Source: Verrucomicrobiota bacterium
GTDB lineage: Bacteria > Verrucomicrobiota > Verrucomicrobiia > Opitutales > Seribacteraceae
Reading direction: 5' to 3'
DNA length: 10,098 nucleotides
Assembly: GCA_014382645.1 (NCBI GenBank)
Contig: JACNJI010000323.1
Location: forward strand, 1-10,098
The position numbers were made by a program, and so were the translations under genes. The notes below the pieces were generated by a model. That model saw only the letters and a list, made by a program, of their open reading frames with translations, was not told the origin of the DNA and searched no databases. This document shows, one piece after another, positions 4,508-8,620 of this stretch. Each line of letters opens with the position of its first letter. The stretch's first letter is position 1.

Positions 4508-5833
4508 TCATTCGTCTGTTGCTATGCCACCGGATTCTTCGAGCGAACGCAAGTTGTGAAGAAGATCTGCGGAATGGACCGACACTTCGGCTCCACTAGA
4601 AAGATCCTTTATTTTTACTTTGTTCGCAAGTACTTCTTCCTCGCCGTAGACGATGGCGAATTTAGCTCCACTGCGGCCCGCTTCCTTGAATTGTTTCCCG
4701 AATGCTTGTCGCTTTAGCGGATAAGCCGTGGAGTAGCCCGCTTGTCGAAGACGCGCAACGTCCCGAAGAGCTGTGGGCCGTTCGTTCTCGCCTGCCACTA
4801 TGAATATCTCGGGGGCGTCGATGTAGTCGGGCAGGAGTTTCTTGCCGTCCAAACAGTCGGTGAGGGTGACATCTCCTATGGCGAAGCCGGCAGCCGGCAG
4901 ATCCACGTTGCCGGAAAGCTTTTTTACGAGATGGTCGTAGCGTCCGCCGCCCGCCAGCGCTCTGGACTCACCGGAACTCTCGAAGGCCTCGTAGACGAAT
5001 CCCGTGTAATAGGCGAGGCCTCGAACGATGGATAGATCGATGTCCACGCAATCTGCCGCGTCATGGGATTCGAGCAGTTTAAGAAGTTCGGCCCACTCAC
5101 CGGCGCGTCTTTCACCTTCCTCGCCGAAAGAAACGAGATGTTCGTTCAAAGCATCAAAAGTTGAAACGGCCTTCATCTTCTCGATGCCCGAAAGAATTTC
5201 TTCGCCCCTGCCGGGTATCGCTCCCTCAATGCTTTCGAGAGTTTGCTCTGGTTTACGTCGTTCGCTTTTGTCGATGGCGTCGAGTAGGGAAGGGCGATGT
5301 TCGTCGCTTACGCCGAGCGAGGAAAGAAACAAAGCCCAAGTCACTCGATCGCTGAGGCGGACTCGAAAGTCGTTAGCACCGAGTCCACAAGCCTTTAAAA
5401 TGGCTACCAGTAGCGCGATGAGCTCGGCGTCTGCAGCGACGTCCTTCTCTCCCATGACGTCGGCGTTGAATTGATAGAAGGCACGCAACCGTCCCTTTTG
5501 TGGACGTTCATAGCGGAAGTGCTCGCCGACGTTGAACCACTTGATCGGTCGTCTAAGCGAGTTTGCCCGGGATGCAACCATGCGGGCCAAGCTAGGAGTC
5601 AATTCCGGACGAAGAGCGACTTGACGGTCGCCCTTGTCCGTAAAGTGGAAAAGTTGTCCGACTATTTCTTCGCCTGATTTCTCGATGTAAAGATCGAGGG
5701 GTTCAAGCACGGGAGCGTCATATTCCCTAAAGAAGAAGGTGCGGGCGACGTTTCGGAAGATTCGAAACAAGTGGTTACGGCGCGAGCAATCTTCCGGATA
5801 GAATTCCCGAAAGCCTGGCAGGCTTTCAAACAT
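4508..5833 (-). CDS. hisS: Histidine--tRNA ligase
   Basis: This class II aminoacyl-tRNA synthetase charges tRNA-His. The 441-residue protein has the expected order: ALRPELTP (73-80) of the catalytic core, motif 2 FRYERPQKGRLRAFYQF (106-122), the histidine-specific insertion region, HisA motif RGLAYYTGFVYE (271-282; R271 is the catalytic arginine), GGGRYDHLV (295-303), and an anticodon-binding domain from about 340 to 425. Motif 3 is unusual: where most bacterial enzymes have GFAxGLERL, this one reads GFAIGDVTL (316-324), lacking the usual arginine. I recall comparable GD-x-x-[IL] forms in plant organellar and some other HisRS, so this is probably a natural subfamily. It starts at ATG 5833, 29 bases after the HU/IHF gene, without a Shine-Dalgarno sequence. 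Confidence 0.96.
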   Translation of the reverse strand: MFESLPGFREFYPEDCSRRNHLFRIFRNVARTFFFREYDAPVLEPLDLYIEKSGEEIVGQLFHFTDKGDRQVALRPELTPSLARMVASRANSLRRPIKWFNVGEHFRYERPQKGRLRAFYQFNADVMGEKDVAADAELIALLVAILKACGLGANDFRVRLSDRVTWALFLSSLGVSDEHRPSLLDAIDKSERRKPEQTLESIEGAIPGRGEEILSGIEKMKAVSTFDALNEHLVSFGEEGERRAGEWAELLKLLESHDAADCVDIDLSIVRGLAYYTGFVYEAFESSGESRALAGGGRYDHLVKKLSGNVDLPAAGFAIGDVTLTDCLDGKKLLPDYIDAPEIFIVAGENERPTALRDVARLRQAGYSTAYPLKRQAFGKQFKEAGRSGAKFAIVYGEEEVLANKVKIKDLSSGAEVSVHSADLLHNLRSLEESGGIATDE

Positions 5834-5862
5834 GGTCGACGTGGTGCGTTGAGCGAAACGAG

Positions 5863-6180
5863 TCAGGAAGGATCTATCGCGTCCAGATCCAGATTGACCA
5901 ACCCTTCCTTCAATTCCTTGCCCGCCTTGAACTTGACTACGGCGCGACGTGGAATGACTACGTCCGTTTGCGGGCGGTTTGGATTTCGCCCTACGCGGGC
6001 TTTGCGCACTTGAATTTCAAATACGCCGAATTTGCGTAACTCGATGTTGCGACCGGCAATGAGAGAATCACGAACAATATCCAAGGTCTGTTGGACGATC
6101 TGACGAACGTCCTCTTGTTTGTAATTATTGTTTTCGTAGATGCTTTGGACGATCTGCCGCTTGGTGAGGTTGTTGGACAT
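5863..6180 (-). CDS. HU/IHF-family DNA-binding protein
   Basis: A small histone-like protein of 105 residues that binds and bends DNA as a dimer. LTKRQIVQSIYE (5-16) starts the helical dimerisation part. NIELRKFGVFEIQVRKARVG (45-64) is the beta-sheet core. GRNPNRP (64-70) is the tip of the DNA-clasping arm with the intercalating proline, and VVKFKAGKELKEGL (81-94) is the C-terminal block. A short acidic tail (LDLDAIDPS) follows. Features are mixed between HU and IHF, so I give no gene symbol. It is first in a two-gene run with hisS. The ATG at 6180 is preceded by no Shine-Dalgarno sequence but by a promoter-like TTGACA about 80 bases upstream. Confidence 0.93.
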   Translation of the reverse strand: MSNNLTKRQIVQSIYENNNYKQEDVRQIVQQTLDIVRDSLIAGRNIELRKFGVFEIQVRKARVGRNPNRPQTDVVIPRRAVVKFKAGKELKEGLVNLDLDAIDPS

Positions 6181-6221
6181 GGCGGTAAAACAGTTTGTAA
6201 ATGGGTGAAGAGGAGTTTAGG

Positions 6222-6239
6222 TATGTGGCTCTACACATA
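6222..6239. promoter_or_regulatory. Inverted repeat in the divergent promoter region, possible operator
   Basis: TATGTG (6222-6227) and CACATA (6234-6239) are perfect 6-base inverted arms around the 6-base spacer GCTCTA. The right arm overlaps the proposed -10 of the HU/IHF promoter, and the site lies about 50-60 bases before the ClpX-like start. It could be a dimeric regulator site; chance is not excluded for arms this short. Confidence 0.3.
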
Positions 6240-6266
6240 GACTTTTCTAAATCAACAACCTGTCAA
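6236..6266 (-). promoter_or_regulatory. Candidate promoter of the HU/IHF-hisS run
   Basis: On the minus strand a perfect sigma-70 -35 box TTGACA (6266-6261) is followed 19 bases later by TCTATG (6241-6236), a poor -10 match at a long spacing. It would give a leader of roughly 50 bases to the ATG at 6180. The -35 is convincing; the -10 is not. Confidence 0.4.
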
Positions 6267-6285
6267 ACCCAATTTGTTTTTTTCC

Positions 6286-7926
6286 ATGTCGAAAAAAGAC
6301 GACGATAACCCTCTCGAAGAGCTCCAGAAGCAACTAAAGGACTTGCTCAACAATAAAAACGTGCAAGTTGCCTTCGCTCCTTTTATGACTGCCGGAGCCT
6401 CCGGAGAGGAGGCCGAAAAGGGAGACGATTCCGGCAGTTCGGGAGAATCCGACGAGCTGGACGAGGGCAAGTCTCGGGATGAGCGACTCGCCGGGATAAG
6501 GAACTTTGATCGCAAGCCGAAGGAGATTCGCGATTACCTCGACCGCTTCGTTATCAAGCAGGAACAAGCGAAGCGCGTTCTGGCGGTAGCCGTCTGCGAT
6601 CACTTCAATCACGTCCGACGTTGCATCGAGGAACCAAAGCTCGCGAACCGCGAGTACATGAAGCCGAATTTGCTCCTCCTCGGTCCGACTGGTGTGGGCA
6701 AAACCTACCTTATGCGAAACATTGCCAAGCTTATCGGGGTTCCGTTCGTTAAGGCCGACGCCACGAAATTTTCCGAGACGGGGTACGTAGGCAACGACGT
6801 CGATGACCTCGTTAGGGATCTCGTCAAAGCTGCCGATGGTGACGTCGAATTGGCGGAATACGGCATCATCTACATCGACGAAATCGACAAGATCGCCTCG
6901 GAATCTTCGAAAGGTGGGCGAGATGTTTCAGGTCGCGGCGTGCAGATCAACCTCCTGAAATTGATGGAGGAGACGGACGTCAACCTGCACTCTCCTCAGG
7001 ACATGATGGGGCAGATGAAGGCGTTTATGGAAATGCAAAAGGGTGGAGGCAAGCCAGGCAAGAGCTCCATCAGTACCCGAAACATTCTCTTCATCGTGAG
7101 TGGGGCTTTCGACAAGCTGGCGGAAAACGTGAAACGACGTTTGTCCCTTTCCCGTATCGGCTTCGGTTCCTCGGAAGAGCAATCCGCCGATGCTCGCCCG
7201 GTTTCGGAATTCCTCCATCAGTCCGAAACCAGAGATTTCATAGACTATGGTTTTGAACCCGAGTTTGTGGGCAGACTTCCGGTTCGGGTAGCCTGTGATG
7301 AACTTACCGGCGAGGATCTGGCAAGCATTCTTCTTAGTTCCGAGGGTAACGTATTGGAGCAGTACCGGAGCGACTTCGCAGGCTACGACGTAACCTTCGA
7401 CATATCGGAAGACGCAATTCGCAAGATTGCCGAAAAGGCCGCCCTTGAGCAAACTGGGGCACGCGGTTTGGTAACCGTACTCGAGCGCACCTTTCGTGAT
7501 TTTAAGTTCGAACTGCCCTCCTCGGCGATTAAAAGTTTCGAAGTCGACGCCGAGACCATCGACAATCCCACGGATGCCCTTCAAGAACTGCTGGAAAGCA
7601 ACAAGGACTTGCTTGACGAAGCCCTCTTGGGCGACGTGGATCGTTTTGCCTCCGATTTCTCGTTCAAGCACGGCTACAACCTGAAATTCCGCAAACCCGC
7701 CAAGGTCGCCTTGGCCAAGATCGCGACCAAGGAGAATCGTTCGATCTTGGCTATTTGCGAGCGCAAGTTTAACGATTTCGAGCACGGTTTGGGAATTATT
7801 TCCAAGCGTACGGGCAAGGTTGAATTCGTGATCGACAAGAAAGTCGTCGACGACCCCGACAAGGAACTTTCCGAGTGGGTCGTGAAAAGCTTCGGCTCAT
7901 CCGAGCCTTCAGGTGACGAATCCTGA
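6286..7926 (+). CDS. ClpX-like AAA+ unfoldase without zinc domain, with duplicated C-terminal domain
   Basis: A 546-residue hexameric-type unfoldase of the ClpX branch. Core motifs: VIKQEQAK (89-96), Walker A GPTGVGKT (133-140), pore loop GYVG (166-169), Walker B IIYIDEIDKIA (194-204), RDVSGRGVQ (212-220), sensor 1 NILFIVSGAFD (266-276), ClpP-docking IGF (291-293), arginine finger in PEFVGRLP (325-332; R330) and sensor 2 TGARGL (390-395). It differs from ClpX in three ways: the N-terminus lacks the four-cysteine zinc domain and has an acidic linker (about 41-66); a methionine-rich, longer segment (231-264) replaces the GGRKHP loop; and about 130 extra C-terminal residues resemble its own small domain. 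I chose ATG 6286 over TTG 6274 because the encoded lysine-rich start is better supported; neither has a Shine-Dalgarno sequence. The IGF motif argues for ClpP partnership; substrates are unknown. Confidence 0.9.
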   Translation: MSKKDDDNPLEELQKQLKDLLNNKNVQVAFAPFMTAGASGEEAEKGDDSGSSGESDELDEGKSRDERLAGIRNFDRKPKEIRDYLDRFVIKQEQAKRVLAVAVCDHFNHVRRCIEEPKLANREYMKPNLLLLGPTGVGKTYLMRNIAKLIGVPFVKADATKFSETGYVGNDVDDLVRDLVKAADGDVELAEYGIIYIDEIDKIASESSKGGRDVSGRGVQINLLKLMEETDVNLHSPQDMMGQMKAFMEMQKGGGKPGKSSISTRNILFIVSGAFDKLAENVKRRLSLSRIGFGSSEEQSADARPVSEFLHQSETRDFIDYGFEPEFVGRLPVRVACDELTGEDLASILLSSEGNVLEQYRSDFAGYDVTFDISEDAIRKIAEKAALEQTGARGLVTVLERTFRDFKFELPSSAIKSFEVDAETIDNPTDALQELLESNKDLLDEALLGDVDRFASDFSFKHGYNLKFRKPAKVALAKIATKENRSILAICERKFNDFEHGLGIISKRTGKVEFVIDKKVVDDPDKELSEWVVKSFGSSEPSGDES

Positions 7927-8620
7927 TCCCGATGCCGTAAGGGTTACCTTCGAAGGCATCGCCCCACGTTACGATCTCGCCAACCATCTGCTGTCGGGAG
8001 GCTTAGACTTTCTTTGGCGGCGGCGTCTGATTCGTGAAGCCAAAGCAGAGCAACCCAGTGATGTTCTCGATTTGGCTACAGGCAGCGGCGACATCGCCCT
8101 TGCTCTCCGCGTTGCTTTACCAGTCGACGTCAAGGTGATGGGGCTTGATTTCTGTCCGCCCATGCTCGCTGAGGCCGAGTGCAAAAGGATCTCCGCCGGT
8201 TACTCACCGGATAGCCTTAGGTTTGTCCATGGCGATTGCTTATCACTGGATTTTCCCGATGGCAGTTTCGACCTCGTCACGATTGCCTTCGGATTGCGCA
8301 ACCTGTCTGACCGAGCGATCGGTCTATCCGAGATGCAGCGGGTGCTTCGTCCTGGTGGGAGGTTGTTGATTCTGGAATTCAGCCAACCTTTCTTTTTTCT
8401 TCGCCCCTTTTATTATCTCTACCTACGAGGCATTCTACCGTTTTTCGCTCGATGGGTGACCGGTGATCGCCAAGCATACGAGTACTTGGGTTCCTCCATC
8501 TCGGGTTTTCCAGATCGGTTCGGTCTTGCCCAGGAGTTACGCCAGGCGAATTTCGGCAAGGTGAACTTCGTCTCGCTAACCGGAGCGGTCGTCGCCCTGC
8601 ACGTGGGCGAGAAAAAGTAG
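7913..8620 (+). CDS. ubiE: Demethylmenaquinone/2-polyprenyl-benzoquinol C-methyltransferase
   Basis: This SAM-dependent enzyme methylates the quinone ring, as MenG in menaquinone or UbiE in ubiquinone synthesis. The 235-residue protein starts with the family block VTFEGIAPRYDLANHLLSGG (11-30). It has SAM motif I VLDLATGSGDIAL (51-63), LDFCPPML (78-85), the post-motif FPDGSFDLVTIAFGLRNL (114-131), LRPGGRLLILEFSQP (145-159) and SSISGFPDR (194-202). Which quinone it serves cannot be told; no other quinone genes are near. The start is GTG at 7913-7915, because a stop lies 30 bases upstream in frame and no later start keeps the family N-terminus. It overlaps the ClpX-like gene by 14 bases, so translation is probably coupled. 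The gene converges on the next one, with a single base between the two stop codons. Confidence 0.94.
   Translation: MTNPDPDAVRVTFEGIAPRYDLANHLLSGGLDFLWRRRLIREAKAEQPSDVLDLATGSGDIALALRVALPVDVKVMGLDFCPPMLAEAECKRISAGYSPDSLRFVHGDCLSLDFPDGSFDLVTIAFGLRNLSDRAIGLSEMQRVLRPGGRLLILEFSQPFFFLRPFYYLYLRGILPFFARWVTGDRQAYEYLGSSISGFPDRFGLAQELRQANFGKVNFVSLTGAVVALHVGEKK

Follow-up and report, generated by a model that had tools for sequence, protein, structure and literature searches.

In ClpX-type motors, ATP hydrolysis is turned into motion through a hinge and a subunit interface, to both of which the small AAA+ domain contributes. For ClpX itself, a published account describes contacts with ClpP that are made mostly by the IGF loops, RKH loops that are important in substrate recognition, an arginine finger at Arg307, and large domains each of which touches the small domain of one neighbour (PMC7112951). 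Myxococcus xanthus possesses an isolated extra ClpX, ClpX3 (MXAN_2743), which is 43.5% identical to Escherichia coli ClpX, the loss of which weakens growth at 36 C, and which is described as devoid of both the N-terminal domain and the RKH motif (PMC11423568). Here, we analyse a ClpX paralogue with a doubled small domain encoded in a window of 10,098 nucleotides, the whole of the stretch analysed (contig JACNJI010000323.1 of the Verrucomicrobiota bacterium assembly GCA_014382645.1). It shares both absences with ClpX3, which, compared by description only, appears to be the nearest studied protein found. None of the titles and abstract openings covered describes a ClpX with two small domains, bioRxiv preprints and the greater part of the subscription journals lying outside that coverage.

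Two consecutive small domains in a ClpX paralogue

The gene, its conserved motifs and the two small domains, hereafter copy 1 and copy 2, are located in the window as follows.

6286..7926, + strand: ClpX paralogue gene, ATG at 6286, open frame of 546 amino acids plus stop
6286..6504, + strand: N-terminal region, residues 1-73, variable, with a single predicted helix bearing an EELQKQL-like motif
6682..6705, + strand: Walker A motif GPTGVGKT, its columns invariant in 50 sequences
6781..6792, + strand: pore-1 loop GYVG (GYVG in 48 of 50, GYIG in 2 of 50)
6979..7065, + strand: stretch occupying the position of the RKH loop of ClpX (SPQDMMGQMKAFMEMQ...), aligned with the canonical GRKHP
7156..7164, + strand: putative ClpP-docking loop motif IGF (IGF in 40, MGF in 6, VGF in 2 and LGF in 2 of 50)
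7273..7275, + strand: putative arginine finger, the R in GRLPV, by alignment to ClpX; invariant in 50 and taken by us to be the equivalent of ClpX Arg307
7303..7599, + strand: copy 1, canonical small AAA+ domain, residues 340-438 (Pfam ClpB_D2-small, 26.7 bits; HHalign 99.5)
7453..7464, + strand: sensor-2 motif TGAR in copy 1, present in 50/50 and 75/76 proteins
7603..7896, + strand: copy 2, small AAA+ domain without sensor 2, residues 440-537 (about), placed by HHalign and fold

Profile comparison and structure prediction confirm residues ~440-538 as a predicted second ClpX/HslU-type small domain behind the ordinary one, in agreement with the first-pass annotation of this stretch, which had proposed by eye that the protein carries a second, degenerate copy of its own small domain. 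The evidence rests on a family sample of 80 loci located with the window protein as the query, and thus biased towards it, 75 of which could be translated (L003, L035, L057, L061 and L062 are cut by contig ends and were left out); together with the window protein this gives 76 sequences. When the two segments are compared over these 76 aligned sequences, HHalign returns a probability of 98.2 and an E-value of 5.1e-14 over 79 columns with 24% identity. Fifty column shuffles of copy 1 gave probabilities of at most 3.6 and the reversed copy 1 gave 0.3; eight of nine windows taken from the large domain gave 0.1-0.4, and the ninth, which extends furthest into copy 1, gave 14.3. In many genomes, a genome-wide hidden Markov model (HMM) of copy 2 also matches copy 1 in the same frame immediately upstream (E 9e-4 to 5e-10), as well as copy 1 of the single-domain paralogue on G160:C42. 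The copy-2 stretch of 95 columns is filled in at least 92 columns in each of the 76 sequences.

Folded alone, copy 2 yields a confident prediction (predicted local distance difference test score, pLDDT, of 91), and all 50 of the structural matches listed are ClpX or HslU small domains, families that do not appear among these listed matches not being thereby excluded. In the structure model, which begins at the second codon so that model numbering equals protein numbering minus 1, ClpX structures align up to residue ~438 and HslU structures up to ~430. Neither Pfam nor NCBIfam recognizes a family in the last 111 residues when these are searched on their own.

The first-pass annotation had also seen a gap of six residues that removes the sensor-2 segment from copy 2. 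The loss of sensor 2 stands, with GAR in copy 2 in 0/50 and 0/76 proteins; the gap itself shrinks to three residues in the profile alignment with copy 1, where copy 2 in addition shows a later insertion of four residues.

As to origin, copy 1 matches 14 canonical ClpX small domains with a probability of 99.5 over 93 columns, and copy 2 matches the same 14 with 85.5 over 28 columns only. As the match between the two copies extends over 79 columns, these comparisons suggest that copy 2 derived from copy 1 of its own lineage. A 'DPxxxL' C-terminal helix shared by the copies was considered as proof of this descent and dropped, because DP or NP also occurs in 2 of 14 canonical ClpX tails and ClpX structures reach as far as model residue ~438.

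With respect to its known relatives, the protein possesses the Walker A and B motifs, the GYVG pore loop and the sensor 2 of a ClpX. Unlike ClpX, it ends in two small domains and not in a single C-terminal one, lacks the zinc domain and the RKH loop, and stays below the cut-offs of both ClpX models (299.3 bits against 370.75 for NCBIfam clpX, TIGR00382, and 338.9 against 359 for NF003745). The hslU cut-off is not reached either (TIGR00390, 205.5 against 362.45 bits). The Pfam matches cover the AAA core and, of the two small domains, copy 1 only; the zinc-binding domain PF06689 is absent from the 22 Pfam families listed for the window protein, and a CxxC zinc motif is found within the first 70 residues in none of 50 aligned proteins. 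The N-terminal region has a low pLDDT over most of its length. The RKH motif is present in 0/50 and 0/76 aligned paralogues; the canonical ClpX of the window genome has GGRKHP.

A family beside canonical ClpX

The unusual layout noted in the first-pass annotation is real but not specific for this genome, as it defines an old, conserved paralogue family in Verrucomicrobiota and Poribacteria that exists beside ordinary ClpX. The doubled form proved to be widespread upon a search for homologues, with copy 2 detected by HMM in 54 genomes out of the 194 sampled from Verrucomicrobiota, the phylum of the window, and in 79 of 84 from the phylum of locus L074, the record of which is titled Poribacteria. 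A full-length HMM gives 57 matches in 56 of the 194 Verrucomicrobiota genomes at 525-838 bits, the next matches being canonical ClpX at no more than 342 bits. Titles of family records name Verrucomicrobia and its orders, Kiritimatiellae, Lentisphaerae and Poribacteria, with one partial protein of a 'Candidatus Acidoferrum' metagenome-assembled genome as a possible representative outside those groups among the named matches; the members are filed under names such as 'ClpX' or 'AAA family ATPase'. Coraliomargarita akajimensis, Pelagicoccus and Cerasicoccus are cultured organisms among these records. A Poribacteria-like doubled ClpX filed under the sponge Geodia barretti (P0149) is probably a symbiont sequence.

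In a tree of 55 sequences and 330 columns (37 paralogues, 15 canonical ClpX and three HslU), the paralogues are separated from the rest with a support of 100, the canonical ClpX group likewise has a support of 100, and the three HslU fall apart from the paralogue. The two Poribacteria members included nest among the paralogues of Verrucomicrobiota, sharing a node of support 99 with Verrucomicrobia members, which suggests a transfer. Two members, L114 (457 amino acids) and L115 (425 amino acids), have a single small domain and stop after the helix preceding copy 2. L114 is sister to the two-domain member L117 with a support of 93, and L115 lies within a clade of support 97 with weak inner nodes (57 and 36). 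As both nest inside the two-domain clade, they were rejected as pre-duplication ancestors and a secondary loss of copy 2 is likelier. A remnant of copy 2 was not found downstream of the single-domain genes on G202:C110 and G160:C42, which is compatible with a clean loss and would equally fit an original absence. The member on G220:C126 is cut by the contig end and uninformative on copy 2.

Canonical ClpX scores over its cut-off in 53 of 56 paralogue-carrying genomes (4 of the 6 carriers among 8 genomes searched, and 49 of 50) and is also encoded in all 11 other genomes reached via the loci. The window genome carries it on another contig, with 595.6 bits, in the order tig-clpP-clpX, the first gene being presumably tig. 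Two full-length matches to ClpP and a weak third are present in this genome, all on contigs other than that of the paralogue; the second full-length match (G000:C110:2709-3242, L089) is located apart from tig-clpP-clpX. A dedicated second ClpP, ClpP2, as an obligate partner was dropped, because the ClpP family is matched only once in 13 of the 54 genomes with copy 2.

Canonical ClpX over the cut-off is missing in G071, G092 and G089. G089 is a draft assembly in which even the ClpP family is matched no more than weakly, and from which the canonical region is probably missing. G071 and G092 (L127 and L128) each consist of one contig of 0.9 Mb with a listed completeness of 99%, and the paralogue is their only ClpX-type match; in both, the one ClpP-family match is located ~10 kb from the doubled paralogue, which retains VGF, TGAR and GYVG.

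Two observations concern other ClpX-like frames. More distant ones of 532-694 amino acids occur on G050:C269, G212:C3 and C30, and at G221:C1:868825-869811 (132-184 bits with clpX), and at G143:C5:101071-102334 the canonical ClpX match is split, with model positions 8-61 in an 86-amino-acid frame and 61-413 in a separate frame of 430 amino acids.

Gene neighbourhood

The paralogue is flanked in the window by two genes that recur beside it.

5863..6180, - strand: HU-like DNA-binding protein gene, divergent neighbour, beside the paralogue in 58/75 loci
7913..8620, + strand: ubiE-like methyltransferase gene, its start overlapping the end of the paralogue, in 55/75 loci

A hisS gene is found near the paralogue in 55 of the 75 loci as well; hisS, HU and ubiE are names that we assume for the neighbours in the window. 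The order hisS - HU-like - paralogue - ubiE (window positions 4508-8620) is kept in most of the 58 nearest loci, the record titles of which mostly name Opitutales or Opitutia. At the other 17 loci (L055, L064-L067, L069-L080), no counterpart was found of the nine genes that neighbour the paralogue in the window, and the largest neighbour family shared among these loci covers 4 of them. A role in a defence system was rejected, as PADLOC matches are weak and fall on the ATPase core.

Proposed role of the second small domain

The family retains the ATPase core motifs, the pore loop, sensor 2 in copy 1 and the ClpP-docking motif, and is devoid of the zinc-binding adaptor domain and the RKH substrate loop. 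As (I/M/V/L)GF is kept and RKH is absent, its members should dock ClpP but recognize substrates otherwise than ClpX does. We hold with moderate confidence that the paralogue is a specialised second ClpX-type hexameric unfoldase which, with a nucleotide-blind copy 2 on the protease side, passes distinct substrates to the ClpP shared with ClpX. The usual tasks of a small domain, nucleotide sensing and packing against the neighbouring large domain, would fall to copy 1, and copy 2 would be a structural module blind to nucleotide. As candidate functions of the second copy, the first-pass annotation had suggested a contact between subunits, a surface for ClpP or an adaptor, or a lid. The C-terminal tail of HslU contacts HslV, and since copy 2 begins where this protease-docking tail would begin (HslU aligns up to model residue ~430), copy 2 may be positioned on the outer rim of the ring, on the side of the protease. 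In that place it would probably brace neighbouring subunits or the contact with ClpP and could make up for the lost N-terminal zinc domain by a binding surface of its own, and the substrate set delivered to the shared ClpP would be the paralogue's own.

Several observations weigh against this proposal. Copy 2 is not universal, as it is missing in G202:C110 and G160:C42. The member on G160:C42 (L115) has in addition lost the GF docking motif, with the full form present in the same genome, so that docking to ClpP is not universal in the family. One of the dN/dS values (ratio of nonsynonymous to synonymous substitution rates) for copy 2 is as high as 0.36. A conserved neighbour that would point to a pathway was not found outside the 58-locus synteny group. 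Finally, G071 and G092 also encode an ATPase with an LGF motif that we take from its architecture to be ClpC-like, next to a second double-ring ATPase, presumably ClpB-like on the same grounds; because of the former, the ClpP of these genomes is no proof of a pairing with the paralogue.

That the family is a ClpP-independent remodelling chaperone with copy 2 as a partner-binding domain would be in line with the joint absence of the zinc domain and RKH, with the location of the ClpP-family matches of the window genome on other contigs and with the GF motif lost in one relative; the retention of (I/M/V/L)GF in 50/50 proteins is hard to explain without binding to ClpP, and we regard this explanation as unlikely. 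Somewhat doubtful, if less so, is that copy 2 serves mainly as a staple of the hexamer which packs on the next subunit and has no role in substrate or ClpP binding. The described contact of each ClpX large domain with the small domain of one neighbour (PMC7112951) and the small-domain fold retained by copy 2 speak for it. Of the three residues of copy 2 that are invariant across 32 proteins (L, F and G), the L and F are identical in copy 1 of the window protein, which also suits a staple, but the G is an E there, and sensor 2 has been lost.

Could copy 2 be no more than a relic, without function and in decay, that an internal duplication left behind? Its divergence is faster than that of copy 1 (mean pairwise identity over 2,850 pairs of 42 against 55%, with 69% for the large domain and 30% for the N-terminal region), and the lost sensor 2, the two members without copy 2 and the single high dN/dS could be signs of decay. 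Eight of 11 chosen closer pairs were computable, though, and seven of these show a dN/dS of 0.02-0.19, which argues that copy 2 is mostly under purifying selection and unlikely to be a relic; considering also the three invariant residues and the presence of copy 2 in 76/76 aligned proteins and in two genomes of 0.9 Mb, decay is very improbable. That the two segments resemble each other by chance or by shared helical composition is hardly credible, given the profile match, the clean shuffle, reversal and large-domain-window controls, by which chance was rejected, and the matching of copy 1 by the copy-2 HMM genome-wide.

A wider and more tentative reading, on which we would not yet rely, is that the family represents an undescribed class of AAA+ protease unfoldase with two small domains in every subunit, in which six of these domains form an additional tier, blind to nucleotide, that surrounds the ClpP contact and replaces the adaptor domain, and which as a second ClpXP with its own substrates can replace ClpX in reduced genomes. 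Genomes with the paralogue but without canonical ClpX make the link to ClpP directly testable, and if ClpX3 of Myxococcus had two small domains, the family would be tied to a thermal-stress phenotype. The natural doubling of the small domain, kept across phyla, is a ready-made test of small-domain roles beyond nucleotide sensing, and it suggests that a second unfoldase of the ClpX type is present in the majority of the sampled Poribacteria and in more than one in four of the Verrucomicrobiota genomes sampled.
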